Positions 6,576-28,915 of a DNA stretch of 64,000 nucleotides are shown in pieces (the stretch's first letter is position 1; every line of letters starts with the position of its first letter). Below the pieces are notes generated by a model that saw nothing but the letters and a program-made list of their open reading frames with translations, did no database searches and was not told the origin of the DNA. This DNA comes from Herbinix hemicellulosilytica. GTDB lineage: Bacteria > Bacillota > Clostridia > Lachnospirales > Lachnospiraceae. The stretch covers positions 310,001 through 374,000 of the forward strand of contig NZ_CVTD020000015.1 in assembly GCF_002904165.1 (NCBI RefSeq), in the 5' to 3' direction. The position numbers and the translations under genes were made by a program.

Positions 6576-6604
6576 ATTATACCACATAATGTTAATGGTG
6601 TCAG
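6576..6604 (-). promoter_or_regulatory. Promoter of the nitroreductase gene, -35 inside a REP-like repeat
   Basis: On the minus strand CTGACA (6599-6604) is followed by 17 nt and TATAAT (6576-6581). The -35 hexamer is the terminal CCTGACACC of the palindromic repeat at 6597-6660. The -10 is a perfect match, and the start codon lies 23 nt downstream with a strong ribosome site between them. Confidence 0.7.
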
Positions 6605-6660
6605 GCACTGTAAATAAATTGTTAACAGAAGTTAACATTTTATTCACAGTGCCTGACACC
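6597..6660. repeat. REP-like palindrome, complete copy
   Basis: Two 30-nt arms (6597-6626 and 6631-6660) match at 28 of 30 positions around a 4-nt AGAA loop. The outer ends read GGTGTCAGGCACTGT and its complement. The element starts on the last base of the histidine kinase stop codon, so it can act as that operon's terminator hairpin. It resembles the copies around the RAYT gene at 9313. Confidence 0.9.
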
Positions 6661-8459
6661 TATCTCGAAATCGGAAATCCCATTTTCACTTTAAACTGGT
6701 CACCGTCTATTTCTACTTTGAAAGTCCCACCGCATGCCTGAGTAAAACTTTCAGCTATAGATAAACCAAGTCCGCTGCCTTCGGTTGATCTTGACTTATC
6801 ACCTCTGTTGAATCTTTGAAGAATCTCCTCAGCGGTAAAATCCATATCATATGATGCCGTATTTTTTACGGTTACATTTACATAATTATTGGCGGTTTCC
6901 ATATCAATAAATACTCTGGTTCCCGAAAGCGAATATTTTAATGCATTACCGATGATATTTTGAAATACCCTGTAAAGTTTCTTACCGTCCGAGTAAATGT
7001 ATACCGGATTTTCCGTAAGATTTGTCTTAATCCGCAAATTTGTCTTTTTTATATCATCTTCCATATCAGCCAAAGTCTGTTCTATAAGCTTTTTTAAATC
7101 CAAATTTTCAAGATTTAACGGAAGGTTGCCGCTGGTACTTTTTGCAAGTTCAAAGAGGTCCGATACAATATTTTTTAACCTTTCGGATTTTTCGGCCAGT
7201 ATTTTTACATAATCCCTGGCAGTTTCCGGCAGGTCTTCCTTGGACAAGAGTTCCACATAACTTATTATAGAAGTAAGGGGCGTTTTAAGATCATGTGAAA
7301 CATTTGTTATCAAATCGACTTTCATTTTTTCGGATTTCATCATTTCTTTATAACTTTCCTGAAATCCCAGATTGATCTCTTCAAAAGTCTTTTTGTTCTC
7401 GTTAAAGTACCAATATATAATTAAACCTTCTAAAAAAATTGCAAATATCCCGAAAAATGGATTAATAAACATTGAAATAAAGAAAATGAAAACCATAAAT
7501 CCGCTGGATACTGTGAAAATTACCTGCCTGCGGTTTAAGGACTTTGTAAGCGGATAATGTTCAAATCTGCTGTCGTTAAAAAAGCTTCTTACAAAGTTAC
7601 TGATACCGGATAATATGGCAAAAATTAAAGTATGTTTAATAAGTTTCCCCGCTTTTAATTTTCTTACAAGGCTAAGAAGAAACATCACGCAGATACTTGC
7701 TGCAATAGCGGTAATAATTCCGATGGCAATCATCGAAATTGTTTGATCAGCGGTAAGGTTACTGTTTTGATAGTTATTATCCATTAATGTGTTGCCACAT
7801 ATATAAAACCATATAAATAGAGTAAACAGTATTCCCCCTGCTTGAATATCACTATAAATCCTGTCAGTATAAGGTGACAGATGGACCTTGTCATCTTCCG
7901 CTTTCCTGCCCGCAACAACAATCAAATATCCCAGGCATATAAGGGCAGCTATAACCGATTGTAAAAACGATACCGTTATCGGGATCAGCTCTGATCTTAT
8001 ATCGTTCCATACCGCTTGCCTTTTTTGAATATAATCATCCGGAAATGCCAGATATAAAGTATATTCTTTTGATTTATCCTGGACAGTTTTAAATTCCTTA
8101 TACAACCAGGGCTGAATCAAAACTTCATATTTATATTTAAGTTTTTGAAGTTCATCCAATGAAATATTATTGTAGGTGTTAACTTCGTCGGTAAAAAAGT
8201 AATAATAATGAAATTCCTTGTCCGGCTTAATACTGGTAGCCAAATAGTCGTGCATTTCATCAATAATCGGTGTAAGCTCATCATTTAAAAATTCTTTACT
8301 TTTCGTATATTCCTCCTCAAATAAAGGTTCCAAATCATAATTACGGTAATAGATATAAACCACATGCAATACGATAGCTGTTATAAATACTACCGCCAGT
8401 AAAAAAGCCGTGGCTTTTAAACCTTTGCTTCTGTTAAACTTTCTCAATCTTGTAACCAA
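6660..8459 (-). CDS. Sensor histidine kinase, VanS/PhoR-like
   Basis: This 599-residue membrane kinase pairs with the response regulator encoded just upstream. One membrane segment lies at residues 14-36, followed by an extracytoplasmic stretch of about 125 residues. Several more hydrophobic segments occupy about 160-350. The kinase core has the phospho-acceptor motif NVSHDLKTPLTS (His near 390), the N box QNIIGNALKYS near 501 and the G box GSGLGLSI near 563. The start is TTG 8459, preceded by GGTGGTGTGGGG, and overlaps the regulator gene by 26 nt, implying translational coupling. The signal is unknown; the multi-pass sensor region suggests a membrane or envelope cue. Confidence 0.9.
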   Translation of the reverse strand: MVTRLRKFNRSKGLKATAFLLAVVFITAIVLHVVYIYYRNYDLEPLFEEEYTKSKEFLNDELTPIIDEMHDYLATSIKPDKEFHYYYFFTDEVNTYNNISLDELQKLKYKYEVLIQPWLYKEFKTVQDKSKEYTLYLAFPDDYIQKRQAVWNDIRSELIPITVSFLQSVIAALICLGYLIVVAGRKAEDDKVHLSPYTDRIYSDIQAGGILFTLFIWFYICGNTLMDNNYQNSNLTADQTISMIAIGIITAIAASICVMFLLSLVRKLKAGKLIKHTLIFAILSGISNFVRSFFNDSRFEHYPLTKSLNRRQVIFTVSSGFMVFIFFISMFINPFFGIFAIFLEGLIIYWYFNENKKTFEEINLGFQESYKEMMKSEKMKVDLITNVSHDLKTPLTSIISYVELLSKEDLPETARDYVKILAEKSERLKNIVSDLFELAKSTSGNLPLNLENLDLKKLIEQTLADMEDDIKKTNLRIKTNLTENPVYIYSDGKKLYRVFQNIIGNALKYSLSGTRVFIDMETANNYVNVTVKNTASYDMDFTAEEILQRFNRGDKSRSTEGSGLGLSIAESFTQACGGTFKVEIDGDQFKVKMGFPISR

Positions 8460-9135
8460 TTCCCCACACCACCTTTAGATATTTCGGTTCCTTCGGATTA
8501 ATTTCGATTTTTTCTCGAATCCGCCTGATATGGACCATTACCGTATTTTCAACCGAATACGCAGGCTCCTGCCATACCTTTTCATAGATTTGCTCGGCAG
8601 AGAAAACCCGGCCGGCATTTTTCATAAGAAACTCCAGGATTTTAAATTCCTTTGCCGTTAACTTAACCGGTTCTCCGTCCACCGTAAATTCCGCCTTTTC
8701 CACATCCATGCAAAGACCACCAACAACAATTTTTGATGTTCCGTTTGCACTGTCTTTTGCCCCAAGGTGCAGGTACCTTCTTAGCTGACTTTTTACCCTG
8801 GCAACAAGCTCCTGCGGATTGAAGGGTTTTGTAACATAATCATCCGCGCCCATAGAAAGCCCCAAAATCTTATCGGAGTCTTCGGATTTTGCAGACAGTA
8901 AAATAATCGGAATATTTTTGCCGTCTCTTACCTTCATCATAGTAGACAAACCGTCAAGCTTTGGCATCATAATATCAAGAATAATAAGCTGCACATCATT
9001 GGATACAAGTGCATCCAAAGCCTCCATACCGTTGTAGGCTTTAATTACCTCATAACCTTCCATAACCAACAACTTTTCTATTGCCCCGGCTATGGTTTTG
9101 TCATCATCAACAACTAAAATTCTTGCTGTTTCCAT
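8434..9135 (-). CDS. OmpR-family response regulator
   Basis: The 233-residue regulator has a receiver domain and a winged-helix DNA-binding domain. Acidic DDD lies near residue 10, the phospho-acceptor Asp sits in LIILDIMMPKLDG near residue 50, and Lys lies in VTKPFNPQEL near 100. The C-terminal part (TAKEFKILEFLMKNAGRVFS, YSVENTVMVHIRRIREKIE) is typical of OmpR/PhoB proteins. I choose ATG 9135, which follows AGGAGGTAAGCCTGAT. The in-frame ATG at 9159 would place that ribosome site inside the coding region. It is coupled to the downstream kinase. No target genes can be named, although VanR-like similarity points to envelope functions. Confidence 0.93.
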   Translation of the reverse strand: METARILVVDDDKTIAGAIEKLLVMEGYEVIKAYNGMEALDALVSNDVQLIILDIMMPKLDGLSTMMKVRDGKNIPIILLSAKSEDSDKILGLSMGADDYVTKPFNPQELVARVKSQLRRYLHLGAKDSANGTSKIVVGGLCMDVEKAEFTVDGEPVKLTAKEFKILEFLMKNAGRVFSAEQIYEKVWQEPAYSVENTVMVHIRRIREKIEINPKEPKYLKVVWGIGYKIEKV

Positions 9136-9226
9136 ATCAGGCTTACCTCCTATCATCACCGTCGTATTTATTGTAACGGTGGTTTCTTAAATACAAACAG
9201 ATAAAAATCTTAAAGATTTCTTAAGA

Positions 9227-9311
9227 GTGTCAGGCACCGTAAACAAACTGTAAACAAAATATTACCAACAACCTCCTCTGTATTCATAATTTATTAACAG
9301 TACCTGACACC
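9227..9311. repeat. REP-like element downstream of the RAYT gene
   Basis: The left end GTGTCAGGCACCGT (9227-9240) and right end CAGTACCTGACACC (9298-9311) are inverted and enclose a diverged middle. It lies 1 nt after the RAYT stop codon and upstream of the two-component operon. Confidence 0.85.
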
Positions 9312-9312
9312 T

Positions 9313-9864
9313 TCAGACACCTTCCACATATTCTCTATACAGGTCCCTGCTGCCGTTTTGGAACAAACATAAAATAGCATTCTCATCTACCAAATCATTC
9401 TTATACAAGCCCATAAAAACCCCGTAGCTGCTCCAAGGATATTGAATTGGTTTTTCTACAATACCTGCCTTTACCGGATTTAGATGTATGTATTTACTGG
9501 TCTGTAAAAGATATGATTCGGTATCAATTAATTCCGAATAATATCTGCCCTGAAAAAGATGACCGGTAAGATCATATTTCTCATTGAAATACATTGAATA
9601 CATCCAATGAATACCCTTCATGATCTTCCATATCTCACTGTCAATAGTTGCTATCTGCAAATGAACATGATTTCCCATCAAACAATAGCTGTATAATTTA
9701 AACGGATATTTTTCATTTACTTTCTTTAAGAATTTCATATAGACCTTATAATCTTCTATTTGCCTGAATATATCTTCTTTGCGATTGCCTCTGGCAACCA
9801 CATGGTATACAGCACCAGGATACCATATTCTTGGTTGACGTGCTATAGGCTTTCCTCCCTTCAT
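9313..9864 (-). CDS. REP-associated tyrosine transposase (RAYT, Y1/HUH family)
   Basis: This 183-residue single-strand DNA transposase is of the IS200/RAYT type. The N-terminal block PRIWYPGAVYHVVARGN is diagnostic. The HUH-type metal site is NHVHLQ (about residues 64-69), and the catalytic Tyr is expected in SKYIHLNPVKAG near residue 122. RAYTs are domesticated single-copy genes that act on nearby REP palindromes. Here palindromic repeats flank the gene on both sides (9227-9311 and 10058-10132), and other copies are scattered to 28915. The start ATG 9864 is followed by GGGAGGAAAG inside the coding region, so the true initiation point is uncertain. The gene is intact with no frameshift, and no classical IS ends are seen. 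Confidence 0.92.
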   Translation of the reverse strand: MKGGKPIARQPRIWYPGAVYHVVARGNRKEDIFRQIEDYKVYMKFLKKVNEKYPFKLYSYCLMGNHVHLQIATIDSEIWKIMKGIHWMYSMYFNEKYDLTGHLFQGRYYSELIDTESYLLQTSKYIHLNPVKAGIVEKPIQYPWSSYGVFMGLYKNDLVDENAILCLFQNGSRDLYREYVEGV

Positions 9865-10057
9865 CTATTCTAAATTATTTGATGCAAGTAATCACCGATA
9901 AAATTTAAAATTTAGCGGCATGGGAAATTTTTTGGAACATAAAAATAAATAGAAATGATTAAAGAATATTAGAAACGGTACTTGTTATATTCTAACATGA
10001 TTTACAAATAAAGTATATTGGGCAATATCATAATTTTTTGAATGAGGTATTGTAAAA

Positions 10058-10132
10058 GGTGTCAGGTACTGTAAATAAATTGTAAACAAGACATCTTGTC
10101 TTGTTCATTATTTATTAACAGTACCTGACACC
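10058..10132. repeat. REP-like palindrome between RAYT and purC
   Basis: A complete palindrome with ends GGTGTCAGGTACTGT and complement, and an inner perfect palindrome CAAGACATCTTGTCTTG. It begins 4 nt after the purC stop codon on the minus strand, so it can serve as the purC terminator hairpin. Confidence 0.9.
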
Positions 10133-10136
10133 CAGG

Positions 10137-10820
10137 TTAATTCACCAAAAGTTTCTCAAGCTCAAGGGGTTCTATGTATTTTCCGTCTTTATATGCTCTC
10201 ATATTTCCGCCGGATATTTCATCTATTAATGCTATATGCTTGTCTTCACCGATACGGCCAAATTCCAGTTTGATATCATAAAGTTCAATGCCTTTTTTTG
10301 CCAGCTCATCTTTTATTATGTTTGATATTTTTATAGTAAGGTCTTTAAGTATTTTATATTCCTCTCTTGTAAGAATTCCAAGCATATGCAGAGCATCTTC
10401 GCTTATAGGAGGATCCTGTCTGGCATCATCTTTTAATGTTACCTCAACAAATGAATCAAGCGGCTGGCCTTCTTTTGCATACATTCCGTAACGGCGAATG
10501 AAGCTTCCTACTGCTCTGAACCTGCATATAACTTCAAGGCCGTTTCCGAATAAAGTAGCCGGCTTTACCTTCATGGTCGCCTCTTCTATATTGCAATCAA
10601 TATAATGTGTAGGTATTCCTTCGTCCCTAAGCTTTTCAAAAAACATCTTTGTAAGCTTTAACCCTGCCTTGCCGGCTCCTTCTACCGTTAATCCTACAGT
10701 ATTGGCACCGGGATCAAATACCCCATTTTCACCGGTCATATCATCTTTAAATTTGAGCAAATAATTTCCGTCTTCCAATTGGTATACATCTTTGGTTTTT
10801 CCCTGATAGATGAGTTTCAT
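10137..10820 (-). CDS. purC: Phosphoribosylaminoimidazole-succinocarboxamide synthase
   Basis: The ATP-dependent enzyme ligates aspartate to CAIR to give SAICAR in purine synthesis. Family blocks seen are LIYQGKTKDVYQ at the N-terminus, KFKDDMTGENG near 30, RRYGMYAKEGQPLDSF near 105, and EFGRIGEDKHIALIDEISGGNMR near the C-terminus. I start at ATG 10820 (227 residues), which follows GAGGGATATCGT; the in-frame codon at 10850 has no ribosome site. It stands alone, without other pur genes, between the RAYT locus and a divergent lipid gene pair. No purine riboswitch was recognised upstream. Confidence 0.96.
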   Translation of the reverse strand: MKLIYQGKTKDVYQLEDGNYLLKFKDDMTGENGVFDPGANTVGLTVEGAGKAGLKLTKMFFEKLRDEGIPTHYIDCNIEEATMKVKPATLFGNGLEVICRFRAVGSFIRRYGMYAKEGQPLDSFVEVTLKDDARQDPPISEDALHMLGILTREEYKILKDLTIKISNIIKDELAKKGIELYDIKLEFGRIGEDKHIALIDEISGGNMRAYKDGKYIEPLELEKLLVN

Positions 10821-10878
10821 ACGATATCCCTCTTTCCCTGTAATCAGCAAATACTTTAATTGCTTTAGATATGGTTAA

Positions 10879-10905
10879 ATTATATTATTTATAAACTGTT
10901 GTCAA
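10879..10905 (-). promoter_or_regulatory. Candidate purC promoter
   Basis: Perfect TTGACA (10900-10905) and TATAAT (10879-10884) on the minus strand, but with a short 15-nt spacer. It lies about 60 nt upstream of the chosen purC start. Confidence 0.5.
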
Positions 10906-10989
10906 TACTGCCATACCCATTTTTTTCTTATCATTGTTATTAATAAAACTGATAAATGATTTGATACAAGTTACAAAATGTTCAAATTT

Positions 10990-11020
10990 TATTCATAATT
11001 TGTTAACAGTGCCTGACACC
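10990..11020. repeat. Half-copy of the REP-like repeat
   Basis: The plus strand reads ATTCATAATTTGTTAACAGTGCCTGACACC, given here as one arm only, closely matching the right arms of the copies at 9227 and 10058. It lies 38 nt before the glycosyltransferase gene, in the divergent purC intergenic region. Confidence 0.8.
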
Positions 11021-11058
11021 CAATATTATATCATATAACCAGAAAGGGACGATGTCAT

Positions 11059-12204
11059 ATGAAGGTGCTGATTCTCTCCTGTGATACAGGGGGAGGGCAT
11101 AATTCGGCAGCCATTGCAATATACGAATATCTCAAAAAAGTTAATGTTGAATGTCAAATGCTTGATGCTTTAACCCTAAAAAGCAGGCAAACTTCAAAAA
11201 GGGCTGCCTCTGCATATATTAGTGTGATTAATATTCCGTTTCTTTTCGGAATTATATACAGTGCCGGAAGTCTCTTAAGCAATCCAAAAGTAAAGTCGCC
11301 GGTTTATTATTTGAACAGAAGCTATCGCAAACAGTTGCAAGATTATATAAATACCAACGGATTTGATACGGTAATCACTACGCACCTTTTTCCTGCCGAA
11401 GCCCTTACGGCTTTAAAGAGAGAAAAATCCATAAATGCCAAAACCATAGCAGTAAATACAGACTACACCTGCATTCCTTTCTGGGAAGAAACCGAACTTG
11501 ATTATTACATCATTCCTCATGAAGATCTCATGGATGAGTTTATACGTCGTGGTATTCCGAAAGAGAAACTCCTCCCTTTCGGTATTCCTGTCAATCCCGA
11601 TTTTTATGCGAAGCTTCCCAAACAAGAAGCCAGAAGGAAATTTTGTGAAATTTACAATGTTAAATTTGACCCTTCCAAACCTTGGTACATGATAATGTCG
11701 GGTAGCATGGGATACGGTAAAGTTCATCAACTGGTAAATGCCATAATTAATATGCACTATACCGGTGTAAATATAGTCGTTATATGCGGAACTAATCAAA
11801 AGCTTAAAAGTAAATTAGAAGCTGATTACGGTGATTTTGACAATGTAGCTATCTGTGGCTATTGTAAGAATGTACCTCTTATAATGGATGCCTGTGATGT
11901 CTTGTTTACAAAACCGGGAGGTCTAAGCAGCACGGAAGCGGCCGTAAAAAATATACCTATAATTCATACCGCTCCTATTCCCGGCTGCGAAACCAAAAAC
12001 GCCCGGTTTTTCAATAAAAGGAATATGTCATATTCAAGCAAAAATATTCAAAATCAGTTAATAGCTGCATTAAAAATGTGCGGTGACGATTCATACAGAA
12101 ACCAAATAATTGAGGCCCAAAGCAGAAATATATCCCGCAATACCTTAGACAAGATTTATATGTTTCTTACTGATCTGAAAAGAAAGGAAGGAATGATAGT
12201 TTGA
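11059..12204 (+). CDS. MGDG-synthase-like glycosyltransferase (GT28 family)
   Basis: The 381-residue protein resembles processive diacylglycerol glucosyltransferases and MGDG synthases. The N-terminal acceptor-side motif DTGGGHNSAAIAI (residues 9-21) is characteristic. The C-terminal sugar-nucleotide domain has IMSGSMGYGKV near 214 and the donor-binding block FTKPGGLSSTEAAVKNIPII near 290-310. It probably transfers a hexose to diacylglycerol or a related lipid at the inner membrane face. The start at 11059 follows AAAGGGACG with wide spacing. The stop overlaps the TTG start of the PlsY-like gene by 4 nt, so the two are translationally coupled. It is one of only two plus-strand genes in the window. 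Confidence 0.87.
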   Translation: MKVLILSCDTGGGHNSAAIAIYEYLKKVNVECQMLDALTLKSRQTSKRAASAYISVINIPFLFGIIYSAGSLLSNPKVKSPVYYLNRSYRKQLQDYINTNGFDTVITTHLFPAEALTALKREKSINAKTIAVNTDYTCIPFWEETELDYYIIPHEDLMDEFIRRGIPKEKLLPFGIPVNPDFYAKLPKQEARRKFCEIYNVKFDPSKPWYMIMSGSMGYGKVHQLVNAIINMHYTGVNIVVICGTNQKLKSKLEADYGDFDNVAICGYCKNVPLIMDACDVLFTKPGGLSSTEAAVKNIPIIHTAPIPGCETKNARFFNKRNMSYSSKNIQNQLIAALKMCGDDSYRNQIIEAQSRNISRNTLDKIYMFLTDLKRKEGMIV

Positions 12205-12824
12205 TTCAATATCTGCTTTTTACTGTGGCAGGCTTCTTATCCGGAAGTATCCTTTACAGTTATATGATTGCAAAATATTTTTGCCGTATAGATATTACCG
12301 AGGTAAGTGACGACAAAAATCCCGGTGCCGCCAATGTCATTAAACATGCGGGAGTAAAATACGGTATCCCTGCCATTATTCTTGATGTGTTGAAGGGATT
12401 TATACCTATTTATCTGGCTTCTAAGCATCTGGATATAGAAAGCCTGTATTTTATACCTGTTCTTGCCGCACCTGTTTTAGGGCATGCTACCGCTCCGTTA
12501 TTTAATTGGCACGGAGGTAAAGCCATAGCATCTTCCTTCGGATGCTTATTGGGGCTTATGCCAAATAGCTATATTGTATTGGTACTTGCTATGCTGCTTT
12601 TTTTCTTTACTTTCTTCGTCATTATCCGTCCGAACAGCCTTCGCTGCATCGTATCTTATGCCTTATTTTCAATGTATTGTCTCCGTTACTGTCCTATTCC
12701 CGGCATCCGTTACGGTGGTATACTCATTTCAATTATTGTAATAATAAAACATCTCAAAGGTTATGAAAACACAAAAGTTACACTTCAGTTCGGCCCCTGG
12801 GAACAGCTTAAAAAGATTATCTAA
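12201..12824 (+). CDS. PlsY-like acyl-phosphate:glycerol-3-phosphate acyltransferase, divergent
   Basis: The 207-residue integral membrane protein has about five hydrophobic segments. PlsY-type motifs are recognisable but altered. The phosphate-loop region reads DDKNPGAANV where GSGNPGATNV is usual. The second motif reads GHATAPLFNWHGGKAIA with GGKA in place of GGKG. The third keeps RPNSLRCIVSYA. PlsY acylates glycerol-3-phosphate from acyl-phosphate, the first step of phospholipid synthesis. The altered motifs suggest either a paralog with another acceptor or a relaxed enzyme. The start is TTG 12201 after AAGGAAGGA. Coupling to a glycolipid glycosyltransferase implies a shared membrane-lipid pathway. 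Confidence 0.8.
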   Translation: MIQYLLFTVAGFLSGSILYSYMIAKYFCRIDITEVSDDKNPGAANVIKHAGVKYGIPAIILDVLKGFIPIYLASKHLDIESLYFIPVLAAPVLGHATAPLFNWHGGKAIASSFGCLLGLMPNSYIVLVLAMLLFFFTFFVIIRPNSLRCIVSYALFSMYCLRYCPIPGIRYGGILISIIVIIKHLKGYENTKVTLQFGPWEQLKKII

Positions 12825-12856
12825 TCGATATGAAATTACATATATAAATTGAAAAT

Positions 12857-12916
12857 GGCTCTGTGTCAAGTAAATCGGTAAGCCCAAAAACTTACCGAAA
12901 TACCTGGCACAGAGCC
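12857..12916. terminator. 26-bp-arm hairpin between the lipid operon and tRNA-Glu
   Basis: GGCTCTGTGTCA...GGTAAG (12857-12882) pairs with CTTACCG...GGCACAGAGCC (12891-12916) with few mismatches and an 8-nt loop. It lies 32 nt after the PlsY-like stop and serves the convergent plsY and tRNA-Glu transcripts. Inner GTGTCAAGTA and TACCTGGCAC resemble the REP-like ends, so it may be a diverged copy. Confidence 0.7.
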
Positions 12917-12930
12917 TTCTTACATCAAAA

Positions 12931-12966
12931 GTGCCAAACACCGTAATACTTGCGATGCCTGACACC
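12931..12966. repeat. Diverged REP-like element after tRNA-Glu
   Basis: The ends GTGCCAAACACCGTAA and GATGCCTGACACC form an imperfect inverted pair. It lies 8 nt from the 3' end of tRNA-Glu. Confidence 0.6.
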
Positions 12967-12974
12967 TTTAAGTA

Positions 12975-13046
12975 CAGCTCGTAGGGGAATCGAACCCCTG
13001 TTTCCGCCGTGAGAGGGCGGCGTCTTGACCGCTTGACCAACGAGCC
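12975..13046 (-). tRNA. tRNA-Glu (anticodon CTC)
   Basis: The minus strand folds as a cloverleaf: acceptor GGCTCGT with ACGAGCT, D-arm region GGTCAAGCGGTCAAGAC, anticodon stem CCGCC/GGCGG with loop CTCTCAC (anticodon CTC, codon GAG), and T-arm CAGGGGTTCGATTCCCCTA. It closely follows the bacterial tRNA-Glu pattern. The CCA end is not encoded. Confidence 0.92.
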
Positions 13047-13062
13047 ACGGAACAATATTTAT

Positions 13063-13089
13063 ATTATACTATTCCGTTATAAAATGCAA
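13063..13089 (-). promoter_or_regulatory. Candidate promoter of tRNA-Glu
   Basis: TATAAT at 13063-13068 on the minus strand, 16 nt upstream of the tRNA 5' end, with a weak TTGCAT -35 (13084-13089) at a 15-nt spacing. Confidence 0.5.
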
Positions 13090-13308
13090 GTACTTTTTTT
13101 TAATTTTTTAAATTTTTTCGCCAATTAATACAACTGTTCTTGTCATTTTATTCCAATATCTTTCATTTTGCTACATTAGTTGTCGTGAGATATATTGTAT
13201 AATATGTTCGTTTATTTTAAATTATTTTATCAATATGCAATATACAACCAGATTATGGTGTCTATTACTGTGCAAATTTTTCAAATTGTTTCATCAATTA
13301 ACACAATC

Positions 13309-13326
13309 GTACCAGGTACCTGACAC
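13309..13326. repeat. REP-like half-end at the polC stop codon
   Basis: The minus strand reads GTGTCAGGTACCTGGTAC directly after the polC TGA stop (13327-13329), with no gap. Only one end of the element is recognisable. The rest of the 280-bp interval to the tRNA gene is AT-rich with no gene. Confidence 0.6.
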
Positions 13327-16300
13327 TCACTGAAGAAAATCCAGCAGCGACATCTGGTTTGATTGAGGCAGATCATCCAATATTCCCAGCCTTACCATGG
13401 TATCTACCAGGGTGGAGCTTACTTTGCAGCGGGTCTTAAATTCGTCTCTTGATAAGAACTTTCCTTGCTTAGCGGCTTCTTCCACCGCATTTGCCGCCGT
13501 TTCTCCCATTCCGTCTATGGAATTCAGTGACGGCATCAGCTTATCTCCGACAATCTGGAACTTGGTGGCTTTTGCCTTGTATATATCTATGGGAACAAAG
13601 GAAAAGCCTCTTGCATACATTTCCTGAACGATACGCATATCCTTATAGGTATCTTGTTCTTTTTTAGACAGGGTATTAAACCTGCGCTTATAGTCGGCCA
13701 TAACAGCTTCCAGATGTTCTCTGCCCTGGCACATCAGCTCATAGTTGAATGCCGATGCACGAATCGTAAAATAGGCACAGTAGTAAGCCAGCGGATAATA
13801 TACTTTAAAGTAGGCTATACGGAATGCCATCATAACATACGCTGCCGCATGGGCCTTAGGGAACATATACTTAATGGTCTTACAGGATTTGATGTACCAT
13901 TCCGGTATCCCTGCCGCAAGCATAGCCGATTCCATCTCGGGAGTAAGGCCTTTTCCCTTTCTTACGCTTTCCATTATCTTAAAGGAAAGGCTTGGCTCCA
14001 TTCCGGAATTAATCAGGAAAGTCATGATATCGTCACGGGTACAGATACAGGTGGACAAAGTACAAATTCCGTCTCTGATAAGGTCCTGGGCATTGTTAAG
14101 CCATACGTCAGTACCGTGGCTTAAGCCGGAAATACGGACCAAATCCGAAAATGACTTAGGCTTTGCTTCCTTGACCATCTGCATAACAAAATCCGTTCCG
14201 AATTCCGGTATGCCAAGGCACCCCAGTTCACATCCGCCGATATCCTCAGGCTTAATCCCCAGAGCACTTGTATCACTAAACAGGGATAAAACTTTTTGGT
14301 CATCAAGTTTGATTTTCTTTGCGTCCACTCCCGTCAGGTCTTCCAGCATACGAATCATGGTAGGGTCATCGTGGCCCAGTATATCCAGTTTTAACAGGTT
14401 ATGATCAATGGAGTGGTAGTCAAAATGGGTGGTAATAGTCTTGGAATTCATATCATTGGCAGGCCGCTGTACCGGTGTAAAGGAATAAATATTTTCCCCG
14501 TGGGGTAAAACAACAATTCCTCCCGGATGTTGGCCTGTGGTCCGTCTTACACCGACCAGGCCTTCCAATAACCTCTCTATTTCCACACTCCGTTTATGTA
14601 TGCCCCGTTCTTCAAAATAATTTTTTACAAAGCCGTAAGCGGTCTTGTCCGCCAGGGTACCTATGGTCCCTGCTCGGAAAGTATGACCTTCGCCGAATAT
14701 TTCCTCGGTATATTCATGAGCCCTGCTTTGGTATTCACCGGAGAAGTTTAAGTCAATATCAGGCTCTTTATCCCCGTCAAAGCCCAGGAATGTTTCAAAT
14801 GGAATATCGTGTCCGTCTTTATTAAGCAGGTTTCCGCATACGGGGCAGGTTTTATCCGGCATGTCACATCCTGAACTTCCCGCATACTTTTTAACTTCTT
14901 CGGAGTCAAAGTCACTGTAATGGCAATTGCTGCAGTAATAATGAGGCGGCAAGGGGTTAACCTCGGTTATTCCCGCCATGGTAGCAACAAAGGAAGATCC
15001 TACAGAGCCGCGGGAACCTACCAGATATCCGTCCTCGTTGGACTTCCAAACCAGTTTCTGAGCAATTATATACATAACCGCAAATCCGTTTGATATAATG
15101 GAGTTTAGCTCATGTTCCAGCCTGTCCTTTACGGGCTTTGGAAGTTCTTCTCCGTATATGGCATGGGCTCTTTCGTAACATATCCTTCTTAACTCCTCAT
15201 CGGAATTGGGAAGTACCGGCGGGCATTTATCCGGCCGAACCGGAGATATTTTTTCTATCATATCGGCTATCAGGTTGGTATTGGTTATGACCACTTCTTC
15301 GGCTTTTTCCCTGCCAAGGTAAGAAAACTCATTAAGCATCTCTTCGGTTGTCCTGAAATACAGGGCAGGCTGCGTATCGGCATCCTTGTAACCCTGGCCG
15401 GCTAAAAGTATCCTTCTGTATACTTCATCCTCCGGATCTAGAAAATGCACGTCACAAGTTGCCACTACCGGTTTATTATACTCTTCACCTAACTCCACGA
15501 TTCTTTTATTTATCCTTTTTAAATCTTCTATGGAGTTAATGTTTCTTTCGTCCCCTCTGTCACTTCGGATTAAGAATTCGTTATTGGAAAGAGGCTGTAT
15601 CTCCAGATAATCGTAGAAATTAACGATTCTTTCGATATACTCATCAGATTCGTTTTCCAAAACTGCCCTAAATACTTCTCCCGCTTCACAGGCAGAACCG
15701 ACCAAAATTCCTTCCCTGCACTCCATCAAAAGGCTTTTAGGAATCTTGGGTCTTTTATTAAAATATTCTATATGGGACAGTGATACCATCTTATAAAGGT
15801 TTACTCGGCCTACATCGTTTCTTGCAAGCAGTATGGCATGATAACTGGGAAGCTTCCTTATGGCTTCAGCAGACATCTTTCCTAGTTTATCTATATCATT
15901 TATATTGTCGATGCCTTTTTCCTTTAGCATCTCAATAAATTTAACAAATATCTCGGCTGTTGCTCCCGCATCATCCACCGCCCTGTGGTGATTTTCCAAA
16001 GAAACACCCAGTGTCTTTGCCACAATATTCAGTCTGTGTTTGTTTAGGTTAGGAAGCAAAATCCTGGATAAGCCTACGGTATCGATATATGTAAAATCCG
16101 ATGTAAGCCCTAGGTCCTTGGCATTCTTTATAATAAAGCCCGTATCAAACGAAGCATTATGGGCTACAAGTACACATCCTTTACAAAATTCCAAAAATTC
16201 CGGAAGGGCTTGTTCAATCAAAGGAGCATCGGCAACCATACTGTCGTTTATGCCGGTTAACTGCTCAATTTCGTAAGGTATGGGCATATTGGGATTAACA

Positions 16301-19183: not shown

Positions 19184-19225
19184 TTTATCACGCCTTTCCG
19201 ATACCGAAGCCTTAAGTCCTGGCTT

Positions 19226-20521: not shown

Positions 20522-20550
20522 ATGCATTTTCCTTTCCGGTATCCGGCTAA

Positions 20551-21717: not shown

Positions 21718-21792
21718 ATTTCCTCCGTATAAAATCCTATCAAAGAATTATGTCCTTTTTGTGTCTTGATATCTTATGTAGCTTTTCATCTA

Positions 21793-22605: not shown

Positions 22606-22619
22606 GGTTTACCTCTTTC

Positions 22620-23693: not shown

Positions 23694-24248
23694 TTATACG
23701 GTAAGGATTTCTTTGGACTTAGCTTCGGTTATTTCATCAATTTCTTCAATATAGGAATCCGTTAACTTTTGGCATTCCTCTTCAAGATACTTCCATTCAT
23801 CCTCAGATATCTCACTGGACTTACTCATTTTCTTGAAAGCATCATTGGCATCTCTGCGGATGTTTCTGATAGCCACTTTGGCATTTTCAGCCCTCTTTTT
23901 GACGTCTTTAACCAGTTCTTTTCTTCTTTCTTCCGTAAGTTCAGGGAATACCAGGCGAATTACCTTACCGTCATTGCTGGGCGTTATGCCAAGATCTGAA
24001 GCCAGTATAGCCTTTTCAATTTCTTTAATCATTCTGCTTTCCCAAGGTTGAATCTGAATTATTCTGGCTTCAGGTACGGATACGTTTGCTACCGCTTGTA
24101 ACGGAGAAGGTTGTCCGTAATAATCCACCCTTATTTTATCCAATAAACGAGGATTAGCTCTGCCTGCACGAATTGCTGTGAACTCTTCTTTAAGATTATC
24201 CAAAGTTTTATTCATTTTTTCCTCATAAGGTTTCAGTCTTTCATCCAT
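23694..24248 (-). CDS. frr: Ribosome recycling factor
   Basis: With EF-G, RRF splits post-termination ribosomes. The 184-residue all-helical protein shows family blocks [18 protein letters not shown] near residues 28-45, [19 protein letters not shown] and [18 protein letters not shown] near 120. Length and motifs are normal. It follows pyrH by 54 nt, the universal pyrH-frr pairing. The following 354-bp gap separates it from uppS. Confidence 0.97.
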
Positions 24249-24302
24249 TATTTCTCCCTCCTCGTATTATAAATTCCTCTTCGCTCTCTAAAATTTAAAA
24301 CA

Positions 24303-25007: not shown

Positions 25008-25017
25008 AAAACGAAAG

Positions 25018-25045
25018 CCTCCATATCAAAAATCTTTTTGATATG
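25018..25045 (-). promoter_or_regulatory. Perfect dyad abutting the pyrH ribosome site
   Basis: CATATCAAAAA (25022-25032) and TTTTTGATATG (25035-25045) are a perfect 11-bp inverted repeat with a 2-nt centre. Its last base is the first G of the pyrH GGAGG. It could be an operator or an RNA stem that limits pyrH translation. Confidence 0.55.
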
Positions 25046-25099
25046 ATTATGCGAAACCATACCTATAATACTCTATCACAACAGGCCGGATTTATCAAG

Positions 25100-25972
25100 C
25101 TATTCAAATATATTGTCCAGGTTGACGTCTGAGTATGTTAATGAACAGAAACCGTCGACAACCGCACCGTTGTTGATCTGTAAAGATTTAGCCTTGATAT
25201 TTCCCTTTATAATTGCTGTGGAATCGATTACTACAGGTCCGTTTACGTCTATATCCCCTTTAACAGCTCCGGCTATAACAGCGCTAGTTCCCAAAATATC
25301 ACCTATTACAACCGTACCAAGTCCTATTTTTACACTGCCTTCACTGTTTATAGAACCTTCCATCCGCTCGGTATTTACATATATTTCTGCTGCGGTGGCA
25401 TTACCTATCACCTTACCGGTTATAGTAAGTTTTCCGAGACATTCCACATCGCCGGTGACATTACCCATAATATCAAGAGAACCTTTTGATGATATATTAC
25501 CGCTTATAACGGTCCCTTTACTGATAACGGTTACTTCATCTTCTTTTGCGTCGTCTACGGAAGCGGCGTGTACTTTTTCTTCTGCCGTATTTTCCTTAAG
25601 ACTTGCATCGTCCTTTTTGTCTTCTTCCGAATTCAAAGCATCAAGAAGCTCTAAATCAATGTTTTCTTCCATATCCCCTTCTCCAACCTCCAGCACATCT
25701 TTATTTTCATTTTTATTAGTTTCATTTACCCCCGTAATTTTATGTTCATTTTCAGTATCGGAATTGGGATCGTAATCTGATTTGTCATTTGCATCATTTT
25801 CGATCTCATCTAACAATGCCTGCATATCGTCATTTGATTCATCATTGGTTGGTTCATCCGAATCCAAGGTGTTTACCATTTCAGACAAGTCATCCGAATT
25901 TTCGTTGCTGTCCGGAAGCAGCTCATCAACTGCCTTTGACAGATCATCCTTGAAATCTTTAAAAAATCCCAT
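25100..25972 (-). CDS. Bactofilin-family polymer-forming protein with acidic N-terminal extension
   Basis: The C-terminal 140 or so residues (about 150-290) are a bactofilin domain: repeated short beta-helix rungs rich in Gly and Val (GTVISGNISSKGSLDIMGNV, GKLTITGKVIGN, GPVVIDSTAIIKGNI). Bactofilins self-assemble into membrane-associated filaments that place cell-wall enzymes. The N-terminal half is unusually acidic (Asp/Glu/Asn-rich) and probably disordered. The start at 25972 follows AGGGATG. It lies 22 nt downstream of the membrane polysaccharide deacetylase, so the two are probably co-transcribed and may act together at the envelope. Confidence 0.85.
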   Translation of the reverse strand: MGFFKDFKDDLSKAVDELLPDSNENSDDLSEMVNTLDSDEPTNDESNDDMQALLDEIENDANDKSDYDPNSDTENEHKITGVNETNKNENKDVLEVGEGDMEENIDLELLDALNSEEDKKDDASLKENTAEEKVHAASVDDAKEDEVTVISKGTVISGNISSKGSLDIMGNVTGDVECLGKLTITGKVIGNATAAEIYVNTERMEGSINSEGSVKIGLGTVVIGDILGTSAVIAGAVKGDIDVNGPVVIDSTAIIKGNIKAKSLQINNGAVVDGFCSLTYSDVNLDNIFE

Positions 25973-25994
25973 AAATTATAAACATCCCTATGTA

Positions 25995-27395
25995 TTATTT
26001 TACACTTGAAGCCTTGACCTGTTGAATTAATGGAACATTTTCATCCAAAGGCAGCACCTGGGCCCCTCCGGATATCAGTGCATCCAGTATCTTCGGTAAT
26101 GTATCCACGGTTTTATCCTTTCCAGTACCGTCATGCATCAGTACTATCGATACCTCTTTTTTGGCCACTCCGTTCAGTACATTTTCAATCATTTGCCCTT
26201 CAGTGTAATCTTTTCCTTCCGCATCTCCGTTAACTACGTTCCAGTCATAATATGTAATACCTTTTTTGTTAAGATAGCCAATAAATTCCCTGATATCCTC
26301 TTTACATACCTGATTTAAACTGCCTCCCGGAAACCGGTATAAAGTAGGCATATATCCAGTAGTATCATATAACAATTTCCATAGTTTTGTAAAGTCTTTA
26401 TCAAAATCTTCTAAAGATTTATATATTTCTTTATAGTTATGAGAATAGGAATGCATACCTAAAGTATGGCCTTCGTCCACAATTCGTTTATATCGCTTTA
26501 AATCCTCTTCATCCGTACTGCCTATAACAAAAAAAGTGGCTTTTACATTATAATCGGCAAGGATATCCAAAATTTTATCCGTATTATCACTGGGGCCGTC
26601 ATCAAAGGTCAGGTATACCTTTTTTTCATGATATATGCCCCGTGACTCTTTTGATGTATCTACATCCTGCCTGATATCTTTAAAGTCTTTTTCTTTGTTA
26701 TCCTTATCAGATGTGTTTTCCGGTTCATCAGACTTTTTATCTTTCTTCCTTGCATCCTTTGAATCATTCCGATTTGATGAATCTTTGGCATTCTCACCTG
26801 TGGCAGTCGTGCCTGCGTCTTTATTAGTAATACCGGATGCGTTTTCTTCTTTTGTATTAGCGCTTGCATTATCAGAATTATATGTCTTTTCTGAGGAACC
26901 GGATTGCTTTGAAGCGGAATTACTTAAATCAGTTTTATCGGTTTTAACATTTTCAAAACTGTCTAAATCGGTTCTATCTGAACTTGACTTATTTAGATCA
27001 GATGTATCTAAACCGCCGATTTTACCTTGGCTTGCATTATGTATACCGGATTTTTGCGATGTTGACCCGTTTTTGTTTTCATCAGTCATGTTTTCAGATC
27101 CGTTTGCTTCTGATTTTTCATCTTCATAATCGGGTATTTCTGACGCATAAGCATAATTTCCCGTACCGTCCTGATTTTTATATCCCGATTCAATATTTTG
27201 GGTCATAAGACTGTTAATCTTTTTTTCCAGTTTATTAACCTGTATGCTTAACAAAATGCACAATATGGTCGGTATAAGAAAAAGAATAAATATAATTATA
27301 ATAATTGCTGTCTTAATTCTGTTAATCCTCTTTTTTTTCTGTATACCTGTGCTTTTGTTACTCACATCCTCTAAAGAAAAATTTATTTTCTGCAA
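25995..27395 (-). CDS. Membrane-anchored polysaccharide deacetylase (NodB domain, CE4)
   Basis: The 466-residue protein has a short basic N-terminus, one membrane anchor (about residues 28-50), a 170-residue Ser/Asn/Asp/Lys-rich linker and an extracellular NodB domain (about 255-450). Catalytic and metal motifs are present: TFDDGPSD (Asp pair), HSYSH, RFPGGS and LMHDG, so it should be an active carbohydrate esterase deacetylating peptidoglycan or another surface glycan. The start is TTG 27395 after GAGGTG. An extended -10 (TGCTACAAT, 27451-27459) lies upstream. Its direct neighbour is the bactofilin gene. Confidence 0.9.
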   Translation of the reverse strand: MQKINFSLEDVSNKSTGIQKKKRINRIKTAIIIIIFILFLIPTILCILLSIQVNKLEKKINSLMTQNIESGYKNQDGTGNYAYASEIPDYEDEKSEANGSENMTDENKNGSTSQKSGIHNASQGKIGGLDTSDLNKSSSDRTDLDSFENVKTDKTDLSNSASKQSGSSEKTYNSDNASANTKEENASGITNKDAGTTATGENAKDSSNRNDSKDARKKDKKSDEPENTSDKDNKEKDFKDIRQDVDTSKESRGIYHEKKVYLTFDDGPSDNTDKILDILADYNVKATFFVIGSTDEEDLKRYKRIVDEGHTLGMHSYSHNYKEIYKSLEDFDKDFTKLWKLLYDTTGYMPTLYRFPGGSLNQVCKEDIREFIGYLNKKGITYYDWNVVNGDAEGKDYTEGQMIENVLNGVAKKEVSIVLMHDGTGKDKTVDTLPKILDALISGGAQVLPLDENVPLIQQVKASSVK

Positions 27396-27450
27396 AATTT
27401 CACCTCATTAGTCATAAAAAGTGTCGTGTTTTATCGACTTTCTTCTATTT

Positions 27451-27459
27451 ATTGTAGCA
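27451..27459 (-). promoter_or_regulatory. Extended -10 promoter of the deacetylase-bactofilin unit
   Basis: TGCTACAAT on the minus strand is a good extended -10. The -35 region is poor. GTCG and CGAC arms about 20 nt downstream (around 27423-27438) form a short dyad. Confidence 0.5.
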
Positions 27460-27663
27460 TAAATCGAATTAAAATAACACTATTTTCATAAGGGAATTAA
27501 AGCTTTTTATATAAGTTTACTTTATATTTACCTGACGCCTACGAGATTAATTGTGAAAAAGAATATGCCGCCTTTTTCTTATTCAGACAGGCAAAAAATG
27601 CCATTCTGCAGGATATTATGAAAACTTTTTGCTTTAATGAACTAAAACATTTACAATGGCAAA

Positions 27664-27984
27664 TCAGCCCTTGCCTGTCTGTTCATCTATCCATGCCAGA
27701 TATGCTTTACTTCCTTTTTCCGCATCCACCATTAAGATTTCCGGGGTTTCATATGGATGAAGTTCCAAAAGTTTTTTCTCAAGTTCGGGATATACTTCCT
27801 TTCTTGTCTTTATTAAAACCAGAATCTCATCATCATGGCAAAGTTCATCCTTCCAGATATAATGACTTTTTATTTTTATTTCCTGTATGCATGCAGCCAG
27901 TTTATTTTTTATAATTTCATTTATTACAGGTTCTGCCTGCTTTTCATTTTCAAAAGTCGTTAAAACTATTCCGTATTTGCTCAT
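27664..27984 (-). CDS. cutA: Divalent-cation tolerance protein CutA
   Basis: The small 106-residue trimeric PII-like protein contains the family core LAACIQEIKIKSHYIWKDEL (about residues 29-48), EILVLIKTRK and HPYETPEILMV. CutA was linked to copper tolerance in E. coli, but its general role is unsettled. The ATG at 27984 follows TTGGAGG. A TATAAT lies about 60 nt upstream with a weak -35. It is probably a single-gene unit between DUF2726 and the deacetylase. Confidence 0.92.
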   Translation of the reverse strand: MSKYGIVLTTFENEKQAEPVINEIIKNKLAACIQEIKIKSHYIWKDELCHDDEILVLIKTRKEVYPELEKKLLELHPYETPEILMVDAEKGSKAYLAWIDEQTGKG

Positions 27985-28087
27985 AAATATGCCTCCAATT
28001 GATTCTTTTCAATAACTCTTTGCTTTTTATGATCATACTGTATATATTATACATTAAAATACCATATAAAGCATGACATAAATAAAA

Positions 28088-28111
28088 GACCGGTTTCTTT
28101 AACAACCGGTC
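28088..28111 (-). terminator. Intrinsic terminator upstream of cutA
   Basis: GACCGGTT (28088-28095) pairs with AACCGGTC (28104-28111) with an 8-nt loop. On the minus strand it is followed by TTTTATTTA. It ends the DUF2726 transcript. Confidence 0.75.
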
Positions 28112-28222
28112 CCTAAAAATGTATTATATCAACGCTTTAATTAATTCAAAAAAATATTATAAATATCCTGAACCTTTATTTCTTGCAGTTCTAATCTGTC
28201 AAGTTCAGCCGAAGTTGGCACT

Positions 28223-28255
28223 ACGGCGTAAAGGTGATTTAATACCTTACGCCGT
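28223..28255 (-). terminator. Stem-loop directly after the DUF2726 stop codon
   Basis: ACGGCGTAAAGGT (28223-28235) pairs with ACCTTACGCCGT (28244-28255), adjacent to the stop codon at 28256-28258. There is no T-run, so it is a stabilising or attenuating hairpin before the true terminator at 28088. Confidence 0.6.
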
Positions 28256-28741
28256 TTACTTATTGCCAAAATTTTTTACGGTGCCTGACACTATTAAATC
28301 AATATCCTGATGCCTATAGTATCTTGCCGCTTTAACTCTTATAAGGGGAAAACCGATATGCTTATACAATTTGTTTTTAAATTCATCGTTTTTCTTTGCT
28401 TTTTTCAGTTCATGGCTGCTGTCATCAAGTTCAATTGCCATAATCGGTCGTAAATTTTTATCGCATATAAGAAAATCAACATGCTTCTGGGATATCTTGC
28501 GAAACCATTTAAGATAATCTTTTTTGCCGGTAACTGTAATAAAATCTTTTAAGCCCACTTTTGGGCAAATAACATATCCGTACTTGTCACACACAGGTTT
28601 AAGCGAATTGTAAAAAACAGTTTCACTTTTTGAAAGTAAATATGTTAATTTGTAAGGAAATGCTTTCTTTCGGTAATATTTAATAACTAAAATTAAAAGG
28701 ATCAGTCCTGAAGATGCCAGTATAATAGTATTCCGGTCTAT
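28256..28741 (-). CDS. DUF2726-domain membrane protein, apparent AUA start
   Basis: The longest frame with a standard start (GTG 28594) gives only 112 residues. The same frame continues upstream without a stop to 28741 and adds a membrane helix (TIILASSGLILLILVIKYY) and the typical DUF2726 lead-in LTYLLSKSETVFYNSLKPV. The domain follows (VICPKVGLKDF, HVDFLICD, IAIELDDSSHEL, FPLIRVKA). A ribosome site GAGAGGA lies exactly 9 nt before an ATA codon at 28741, and no ATG, GTG or TTG occurs before GTG 28594. Initiation is therefore probably at AUA, giving 161 residues; otherwise the gene has lost its start. The last codons (SGTVK) are made of REP-like repeat sequence. Function is unknown; DUF2726 resembles nuclease-like folds. 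Confidence 0.7.
   Translation of the reverse strand: MDRNTIILASSGLILLILVIKYYRKKAFPYKLTYLLSKSETVFYNSLKPVCDKYGYVICPKVGLKDFITVTGKKDYLKWFRKISQKHVDFLICDKNLRPIMAIELDDSSHELKKAKKNDEFKNKLYKHIGFPLIRVKAARYYRHQDIDLIVSGTVKNFGNK
28275..28291. repeat. REP-like end inside the 3' end of the DUF2726 gene
   Basis: The minus strand reads GTGTCAGGCACCGTAAA, identical over its first 13 bases to the left end of the copy at 9227. It lies in frame and encodes part of the C-terminus. Confidence 0.65.
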
Positions 28742-28820
28742 TTATATCAGTCCTCTCAATCTTTAAGTTTGTGCAAAGTACAGATTACGTCCGGCAACAT
28801 GGTTTTAACTGCTATAAGGC

Positions 28821-28872
28821 AGAAAAAAGCAGGCCCTAAAATCCCGTAATCGTGTTACAGGCTTTTAGAGCC
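28821..28872 (-). terminator. Intrinsic terminator after tsf
   Basis: GGCCCTAAAA (28832-28841) pairs with TTTTAGAGCC (28863-28872). On the minus strand the stem is followed by GCTTTTTTCT. It closes the rpsB-tsf operon. Confidence 0.75.
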
Positions 28873-28879
28873 TTATTTA

Positions 28880-28915
28880 CAATTTGTTCATAATTTATTA
28901 ACAGTACCTGGCACC
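28880..28915. repeat. REP-like half-copy after tsf
   Basis: The plus strand ends CATAATTTATTAACAGTACCTGGCACC, close to the right arms at 9227 and 10990. It lies 4 nt after the tsf stop codon, between the gene and its terminator. Confidence 0.8.

Follow-up and report, generated by a model that had tools for sequence, protein, structure and literature searches.

Hairpin repeats at gene 3' ends in Herbinix hemicellulosilytica and a RAYT transposase that probably serves them

Results

Repeats and genes at the locus

The DNA analyzed here, a stretch of 64,000 nucleotides from contig NZ_CVTD020000015.1 of Herbinix hemicellulosilytica (the window), contains a gene for a repetitive extragenic palindrome (REP)-associated tyrosine transposase (RAYT), flanked by purC and a response regulator gene, together with copies of a short inverted repeat, many of which lie at the 3' ends of genes. 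An initial interpretation of its letters alone (the sequence-only reading) had proposed REP-like palindromes dispersed around the RAYT. We followed repeat and transposase through the window, the whole assembly (G000; 3.04 Mb in 35 contigs) and a comparison set of 41 genomes, namely, G000 and 40 relatives, of which 25, G000 included, are members of the genus.

The end sequence of the repeat, GGTGTCAGGYAC, is referred to below as the foot. With up to 2 mismatches it matched the window 15 times, compared to 2.8 matches expected, and none of 100 shuffles reached this number. Nine exact feet lay within the 22.3-kb span that holds the RAYT, where 0.36 were expected (Poisson P = 2e-10), so the enrichment near the RAYT for which a genome-wide search had been named beforehand was found. 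The at least eight full, half, or diverged copies counted earlier were recovered as three complete palindromes, two halves, and a set of bare or diverged feet (Table 1), with complete copies on both sides of the RAYT. All six proposed distances to gene ends agreed to within 1 nt; the foot just past tRNA-Glu is 7 nt from its 3' end, not 8. To these six cases, the foot at 28281 within the tail of the DUF2726 gene can be added. We regard the two feet at 12.9 kb and the two-mismatch matches at 24066, 27528, and 48413 as weak, and all of them may be chance occurrences.

Table 1. Repeat copies and genes in the window (empty strand cells, no strand assigned; bits, score of the half-site model described below)
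Feature	Position	Strand	Remarks
Complete element, 64 nt	6597..6660		Overlaps the histidine kinase TAG stop by its G; DNA fold -26.6 kcal/mol, z -11
Complete element, 86 nt	9226..9311		1 nt past the RAYT TGA; DNA fold z -1.6, RNA fold z -4.8
Complete element, 75 nt	10058..10132		4 nt past the purC TAA, upstream of RAYT; DNA fold -27.5 kcal/mol, z -10.8
Half element (foot and one arm)	10984..11020	-	Divergent gap; inverted-repeat arm; half-site model match 10992-11020, 34.4 bits
Two diverged feet (12931/12955), weak	12931..12966	-	Nearer one ends 7 nt past the tRNA-Glu 3' end; no half-site model match
Bare foot	13316..13327	-	Shares the A of the polC TGA; no half-site model match
Foot and partial arm	28270..28292	-	Inside the 3' end of the DUF2726 gene, codes part of the C-terminal tail; 18.2 bits
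Half element, GGTGCCAGG foot	28886..28915	-	4 nt past the tsf TAA; half-site model 26.9 bits
RAYT (TnpA-REP-like Y1 HUH transposase, 183 aa)	9313..9864	-	PF01797, E 2e-14
purC (SAICAR synthetase)	10137..10820	-	Upstream neighbor at the conserved RAYT locus
Response regulator, Trans_reg_C domain	8434..9135	-	Downstream neighbor at the conserved RAYT locus
DUF2726 protein (PF10881) gene	28256-28594	-	Tail ...VSGTVKNFGNK partly from the foot at 28281

Anatomy and copy number of the repeat family

Genome-wide, the exact 11-mer GTGTCAGGYAC occurred 49 times in G000 (23 forward, 26 reverse) and its reversed control not once, which bears out the claim of a dispersed family. The feet fell into 32 clusters, and the family comprises about thirty short hairpin repeats. 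Sixteen copies carried both feet, as inverted repeats of 64 to 96 nt with no more than 2 mismatches per foot. A complete element consists of two inverted GGTGTCAGGYAC feet and AT-rich arms of the type TGTWAAYAAATTGTRAAC. The 32 half-sites of the 16 complete copies yielded the consensus GGTGTCAGGYACTGTWAAYAAATTGTRAAC, in which 9 of 12 foot positions were invariant; 28 half-sites started with GGTG, T came next in 31, and one (left end of L036) read GTGG. The orientation of the foot relative to the arm was reversed (GGTACCTGACAC-TGTWAAC) in 7 cases, compared to 36 in the usual order, after 3 of 10 matches had been dropped as normal feet beside a TTAAG/TTAAT flank (two at L043 8364-8429, one at window 9226).

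Folded as single-stranded DNA, four of five complete copies gave strong hairpins (-22.6 to -36.4 kcal/mol, z -8.7 to -14.4). The one exception was the copy at window position 9226, which folded only weakly. Copy L046 has perfect 30-bp arms. Each of three half-sites folded alone reached only -0.3 to -1.3 kcal/mol, not above shuffles. The elements are not canonical REPs, because they have no GT[AG]G consensus foot and their half-sites do not fold; as in REP doublets forming hairpins (REPINs), an inverted doublet forms one hairpin of approximately 60 to 100 nt. What stood of the proposal of REP-like palindromes with a RAYT is a dispersed repeat family with a strong gene-3'-end bias (see below), enriched at a RAYT whose fold and catalytic motifs are intact, and not the assignment to canonical REPs.

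Two further ideas about flanks and core were rejected. Insertion into terminator hairpins by way of palindromic flanks was tried, and 3 of the 16 copies showed complementarity extended by 5 to 6 bp, with a total of 66 compared to 61.6 in shuffled pairings (P = 0.26). A Rex-type operator (TTGTGAA-N6-TTCACAA) fits the core of L046, a match judged coincidental because the spacer length varies between copies. That the repeats are DNA uptake sequences was likewise rejected, on the basis of copy number. The polC foot (window 13299-13327) and the L049 foot at 3004 have in common the extended form GTGTCAGGTACCTGGTAC, followed by AT-rich DNA, and perhaps represent a second element subtype. Tandem feet were seen in two relatives, as four at 42-nt spacing in L163 (G019 C13) and as four directly adjoining 12-mers in L176 (G014 C224).

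The RAYT protein

At E values of 0.001 or less, PF01797 had one match in G000, the RAYT, which is thus the single Y1 transposase gene of the genome. A sequence search of solved structures found 4er8 as the sole relative (E = 5e-4). The structure predicted from 51 aligned sequences had a pLDDT of 94.5, and a fold search with it returned 4er8, a RAYT bound to a REP hairpin, first (E = 4.5e-10), followed by the ISDra2, IS200, and IS608 transposases. H66, H68, Y125, and N129 were invariant in all 51 aligned sequences, and Y125 aligns with a tyrosine of 4er8 that is presumably the catalytic Y115. Both HUH histidines, FQ, and YIHLNP were kept in all seven orthologues of the genus, and the RAYT is predicted to be catalytically intact. 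The motifs NHVH, FQ, and YIHLNP are among those that Quentin et al. 2018 (PMC6006769; Table 1) list for TnpA-Y1 subclass 2.1, and by these motifs the protein would belong to subclass 2.1, or Bertels group 1.

The RAYT is single copy, vertically inherited, and not an insertion sequence (IS), and it appears to be a domesticated transposase. Spread by plasmids was considered and rejected, as relatives occurred in 30 of 72,556 plasmid records, all of them below 60% identity. With regard to spread by phages, viral contigs contained three weak relatives with 36 to 39% identity.

The RAYT locus across the genus

Some relative of the RAYT was present in 16 of the 41 genomes, and seven genus members including G000 carried a close orthologue, the other six with 62 to 70% identity. 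In six of these seven (G000, G001, G005, G014, G017, and G019), the gene lies near purC and/or the response regulator gene. G019 has one additional gene next to purC, and in G014 two additional genes precede the regulator gene. The RAYT of G017 (L215/L200) is inverted relative to purC, possibly by a local inversion. At shared loci, the identity of the RAYT was 64 to 68%, compared to 82 to 88% for its neighbors. Feet were found within approximately 1 kb of the RAYT in G002, G014, G017, and G019, on both sides except in G017.

In G020 (L211/L257), a RAYT remnant of approximately 28 codons next to purC is fused to the response regulator gene at a point midway along the latter; either most of the RAYT and the regulator N terminus would have been deleted or the contig was misassembled. 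G009 has a partial relative with 48% identity. In G007, a single contig with a completeness of 99%, purC and the response regulator gene are immediate neighbors, and there is no RAYT.

Co-occurrence of repeat and RAYT

The foot pattern GGKGHCAGGYAC occurred 38, 9, 45, 10, 142, 23, and 104 times in the seven RAYT genomes G000, G001, G002, G005, G014, G017, and G019, respectively. Among the other 18 genus members, there were 81 in G015, 27 in G020, 10 in G009, 8 in G007, and 0 to 4 in each of the remaining fourteen (Mann-Whitney P = 6e-4 for 7 versus 18 genomes). Its reversed control gave 40 matches in total over the 25 genus members, with a maximum of 12 per genome. Within the genus, feet are numerous only where a RAYT is present, decayed, or possibly unassembled. 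In G036, a relative from the same order (2.0 Mb, several contigs), ten RAYT matches with 28 to 52% identity, some of them fragments and several with long C-terminal extensions, were accompanied by only 2 occurrences of GTGTCAGGYAC and none of GGKGHCAGGYAC.

A half-site model was built on G000 and applied to at most 150 candidates per genome. Among the candidates scored, it matched 43 times in G000, 19 in G019, 13 in G015, 9 each in G007 and G002, 8 in G017, and not at all in five further genomes. Because foot and inner types differ between species, the model follows the arm type and not the RAYT.

Foot types in relatives and at distant RAYT loci

Among the matches listed, the foot was GGGGTCAGGCAC in G002, mostly GGTGCCAGGYAC in G014, and often GGTGACAGGCAC in G015; the foot at the RAYT of G017 was GGTGCCAGG, and that of G019 was the G000 foot with a different inner part. 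We also examined distant RAYT loci, the best 80 of at least 578 confirmed, from several phyla. Unbiased counting of 9-mers pointed to words of the GGGGTCAG type close to the gene. The density of GGGGTCAG was 0.81/kb within 500 nt of the RAYT and 0.057/kb beyond 1.5 kb, a 14-fold difference; 35 of the 80 loci had at least one occurrence within 500 nt, 17 had them on both sides, and the reversed control had none nearby. The same word is found in the relative G002 and fits GGGGWSAS, the consensus of the TIRYT/TIRtron repeats (Di Nocera et al. 2013, PMC3733652). These likenesses suggest that the feet of G000, of its relatives, and of the distant loci belong to one family.

Placement at gene 3' ends

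Gene ends were taken from a codon-usage gene caller that missed or shortened some genes (RAYT and DUF2726 were shortened, and the EPSP-synthase gene of L043 was missed), and the 3'-end count is therefore approximate. Five of the 32 clusters in G000 lay inside called open reading frames and were excluded. Two of these, L038 and window 28281, are real overlaps with 3' ends, whereas those of L041, L042, and L045:9646 lack an arm and are probably chance occurrences. Of the 27 scorable clusters, 16 began or ended within 5 nt of a gene 3' end, compared to 3.2 expected, and uniform placement in the same gaps gave at most 9 in 20,000 runs. None was within 10 nt of a gene 5' end. The bias toward stop codons noted in the window thus holds genome-wide, and it recurs in relatives. 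In seven other genomes, 19 of 63 clusters lay within 5 nt of a 3' end (6.7 expected), 28 within 10 nt (9.9 expected), and 2 within 10 nt of a 5' end.

Some elements contribute to the proteins that they follow. PyrI of G000 ends in ...CEQAF-DGVPSVVSGTVNKL, with its stop codon in the element arm, and PyrI of G007 ends in ...CEQAF-KGVRYR, where the stop is provided by the G007 copy of the element. The EPSP-synthase-family protein in L043 has the element-encoded end ...FFEKVSGTVNKM. The tail encoded by the element is VSGTVNK on the latter protein and on PyrI and VSGTVKN on the DUF2726 protein. When elements were read in the +1 frame, a stop came after 6 to 8 codons in 28 of 32 readings. A terminator-like site followed the element at 2 of 18 abutting gene ends, compared to 7 of 139 other gene ends, and in L045 and L047 a native terminator was kept beyond the element.

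TAA(T/G) stood immediately before the foot at 11 of 32 flanks, where 0.7 were expected. It was a stop codon in only 5 of the 11 cases, so a target motif alone does not explain the 3'-end bias. Nor is this bias special to the family, because it has already been published for GTAG and CGTC REPs, which are described as lying close to gene 3' ends, those between convergent genes mostly at less than 20 bp, with GTAG REPs often supplying the TAG (PMC3733652).

Shared gaps and element turnover

From G002, G007, G014, G015, G017, G019, and G020, 100 stretches were chosen for feet or model matches, including RAYT/purC loci; one of them, L268, was taken only to extend the tsf region. Gap sharing was compared over 93 of these stretches, those of G002, G017, and L268 being left out. 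The orthologous gene end in G000 also carried an element for 25 of 108 element gaps (10 of 37 in G019, 8 of 34 in G014, 4 of 18 in G015, 2 of 15 in G020, and 1 of 4 in G007). Neighboring gaps without an exact foot served as a control, an imperfect one since they share too, 12 of 140 mapping to a G000 element (Fisher P = 0.001). Relative to chance, at 1.9% per gap, P was 4e-20 under the assumption of an estimated 5,400 or so gene ends. Eleven of the 25 shared gaps map near the RAYT (window 6597-13327), and 14 map elsewhere. A separate tblastn comparison paired two further G007 loci outside the 25, L191 with L038 and L193 with L032.

Element sequences were compared in 11 orthologous pairs, 10 from the 25 shared gaps and L043/L181, with scores that depend on element length. 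These pairs scored 11 to 22, similar to nonorthologous copies (medians of 12 to 20.5). The element of the relative scored clearly higher against copies of its own species in 7 of 11 pairs (medians of 23.8 to 37.5) and slightly higher in one (G014 L181); three pairs showed no such advantage (G019 L240, G014 L177, and G015 tsf). Sites thus recur between species while element types differ, which fits in-place rewriting and reused hot spots alike. In two gaps, the junction nearer the gene was alike in G000 and G014, at 4 versus 3 nt past the stop (L043/L181) and at 18 versus 26 nt before the start (L034/L176).

For tsf, the 3' end was read in five of nine relatives, those other than G020, G019, G008, and G002. 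A foot occupies the same tsf site in G000, G005, and G015. Just past the tsf stop, L206 of G001 and L208 of G017 have a different repeat, of the GTGTCAAGGGGACGGGGATACTGTCAC type in G001 and in a related form in G017, and this other repeat family may share the site preference.

The G007 copy that matches L032 has feet altered to GTACCAGGTAC and GTACCTGGTACC, a TTTTTT run after the stem, and, relative to G000, a complementary change in both arms (TTAAC to TTAGC plus its partner), a single pair and not a test of covariation. This copy looks like a terminator. Behind purC, the RAYT-bearing G019 has a short GGTGTCAG/CTGACACC stem with TTTT. These are two cases, too few for a rule.

Discussion

We consider it likely that these repeats are a REPIN-like, TIRYT-type family of nonautonomous hairpin elements, served by one vertically inherited and apparently catalytically intact RAYT with subclass 2.1 motifs. 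The family itself, its anatomy, the synteny of the RAYT locus, the co-occurrence of the two, and the placement of the elements can be read from the sequences, and from these we infer that the RAYT mobilizes the elements, that the intermediates are single stranded, and whatever influence the elements may have on gene expression. A RAYT dimer would recognize the hairpin ends on single-stranded DNA, with cleavage and joining through the HUH/Tyr center, as in IS200/IS605 and TnpA-REP, and the elements would thereby be copied or moved in trans. Copies at stop codons would survive because the protein stays whole or gains a stop codon with a short tail; some of these copies might become terminators. 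Species-specific types in shared gaps would then mean that elements at old sites continue to turn over or be replaced.

A number of observations weigh against this interpretation. Among the genomes compared, all of them different species, we saw no instance of insertion or excision and no empty site. The RAYT scores 79.8 bits with NF047646 (REP-associated tyrosine transposase), 0.2 bits under the cut-off of 80. In the stretch examined of G002, neither purC nor the regulator gene accompanies the RAYT, and the short RAYT loci L054 (G005) and L055 (G001) yielded no feet. At the distant RAYT loci, 45 of 80 had no GGGGTCAG within 500 nt, and GGTGTCAG was not strongly enriched (4 near, 24 far). It should be noted that GGKGHCAGGYAC was broadened after foot variants were known. 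GTGTCAGGYAC alone gives a weaker split, with 49, 6, 14, 4, 37, 2, and 91 occurrences in the seven RAYT genomes and 23 in G015, 6 in G007, 5 in G009, 4 each in G010 and G020, and 0 to 2 in the remaining 13. The half-site model had one match each in the RAYT-bearing G014, G001, and G005, compared to 9 in the RAYT-less G007 and 13 in G015. The argument from co-occurrence is weakened by these narrower counts. The sequence-only reading would also have expected genomes without a RAYT to lack the repeat, which holds only in part, since the complete, RAYT-less G007 keeps 8 feet. They read best as relics, because three copies, two of which have an exact foot, occupy gaps whose G000 orthologues carry an element with a similar arm type. 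G015 has 81 feet and no RAYT, and its RAYT locus may be unassembled, as the 85% complete assembly has no purC match either.

The elements could instead be functional 3'-end structures, such as terminators, protectors of mRNA ends, or translational brakes, kept by selection while the RAYT is now marginal. The very stable hairpins 0 to 5 nt past stops would suit such a role, as would the terminator-like copies of the RAYT-less G007 and of G019, and Escherichia coli REPs less than 16 nt from a stop are described as lowering translation (PMC12306157). Most elements, however, have no T-run, terminator-like sites past them are as scarce as given above, feet track the RAYT across the genus, and the element type varies by species in shared gaps, unlike what sequence constraint predicts; we regard this explanation as possible but somewhat doubtful. 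That the repeats are ordinary miniature inverted-repeat transposable elements (MITEs) of an unrelated DDE transposase and lie close to the RAYT only by coincidence is very improbable and is disfavored by the data. Terminal inverted repeats, the absence of coding capacity, and dispersed copies would all be typical of MITEs, and two of the 16 copies (L032 and L043:8364) have TTAA at a distance of 1 nt from either end, but no regular target-site duplication was seen by eye in 16 flank pairs, feet lie close to the RAYT in four relatives, and copy number tracks the RAYT.

Two other alternatives concern placement. The 3'-end bias, which is compatible with targeting and with selection alike, may be due simply to purifying selection against insertions into coding sequences, promoters, and terminators, with no targeting involved. 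The absence of copies next to 5' ends, the native terminators kept in L045 and L047, and the TAA[TG] flanks that are mostly not stop codons speak for this, and the failure of uniform placement within the same gaps to reach the observed count speaks against it; it is a real possibility, although we do not lean toward it. For gap sharing, repeated independent insertion at hot spots, as opposed to the rewriting of old copies, has close to an even chance of being correct. The orthologous pairs bear no clear trace of shared sequence, and the tsf site is occupied by another repeat in G001 and G017, while G007 retains G000-like copies in shared gaps and the gene-side junctions of G000 and G014 are similar in two of them. 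A more far-reaching proposal is that the RAYT rewrites elements in place. Stop-adjacent sites would be old and shared, their sequences repeatedly replaced by the current type of the species, so that the dispersed family would evolve in concert without loss of sites, and the sites would donate stops and tails and harden into terminators once the RAYT is lost. We put this forward as a speculation that is rather unlikely to be correct.

Pseudomonas REPIN families are larger than the family described here. Among its closest published likenesses is the TIRYT/TIRtron system (PMC3733652), described as a Y1 transposase with its own dispersed inverted repeats, some families of which are self-complementary and occur in dimers or clusters. 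GGGGTCAG of G002 and of the distant loci fits the repeat motif of that system, whereas the G000 foot GGTGTCAG resembles it but departs from it in one position (third G to T) and the elements here have a defined AT-rich arm type. The main text of that article does not mention Firmicutes or Clostridium, and it names Bacillus only for an unrelated MITE. Subclass 2.1, which Quentin et al. matched to Bertels group 1 and equated with TIRYTs, resembles our RAYT in motifs and low copy number. Unlike the dispersed family with feet around the RAYT here, no REP-like sequence is reported there by automatic or manual search, and our protein has 183 aa compared to a median of 238 (PMC6006769). REPINs, as outlined by Bertels and Rainey 2011 (PMC3116915), likewise have two inverted ends and a spacer in one hairpin (71 bp between the ends in the GI type), and their RAYT is described as single copy and vertically inherited (PMC8049555). 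In a REPIN, however, every REP has a foot of the GTAG type and forms a palindrome by itself (PMC3686654), in contrast to the different foot and unfolded half-sites found here. The double-foot REPs described for subclass 2.4 also form one long hairpin with the foot and its reverse complement at the ends, differing in their GT[AG]G foot and transposase subclass (PMC6006769). Among the matches listed from the open-licence literature, a scope that most subscription journals lie outside, no earlier report of this repeat family was found, and none of the open-licence papers listed for the 11-mer or its complement concerned a bacterial repeat, judged by title and the start of the abstract. As a side observation on the DUF2726 protein (window 28256-28594), it has a restriction-endonuclease-like match to PF18741 that is below the cut-off.

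What is new here is the subclass, the foot, and the shared-gap pattern, and not the principle. Subclass 2.1, or group 1, is the largest non-IS subclass, and it has been described without REPs and with only a presumed link to TIRYTs. A Clostridia-type genus with a clear cognate repeat, a TIRYT-related foot, and natural losses of the RAYT would provide a testable substrate for this subclass, and elements that differ by species in shared gaps would make the genus a natural system for studying repeat turnover and stop-codon location.

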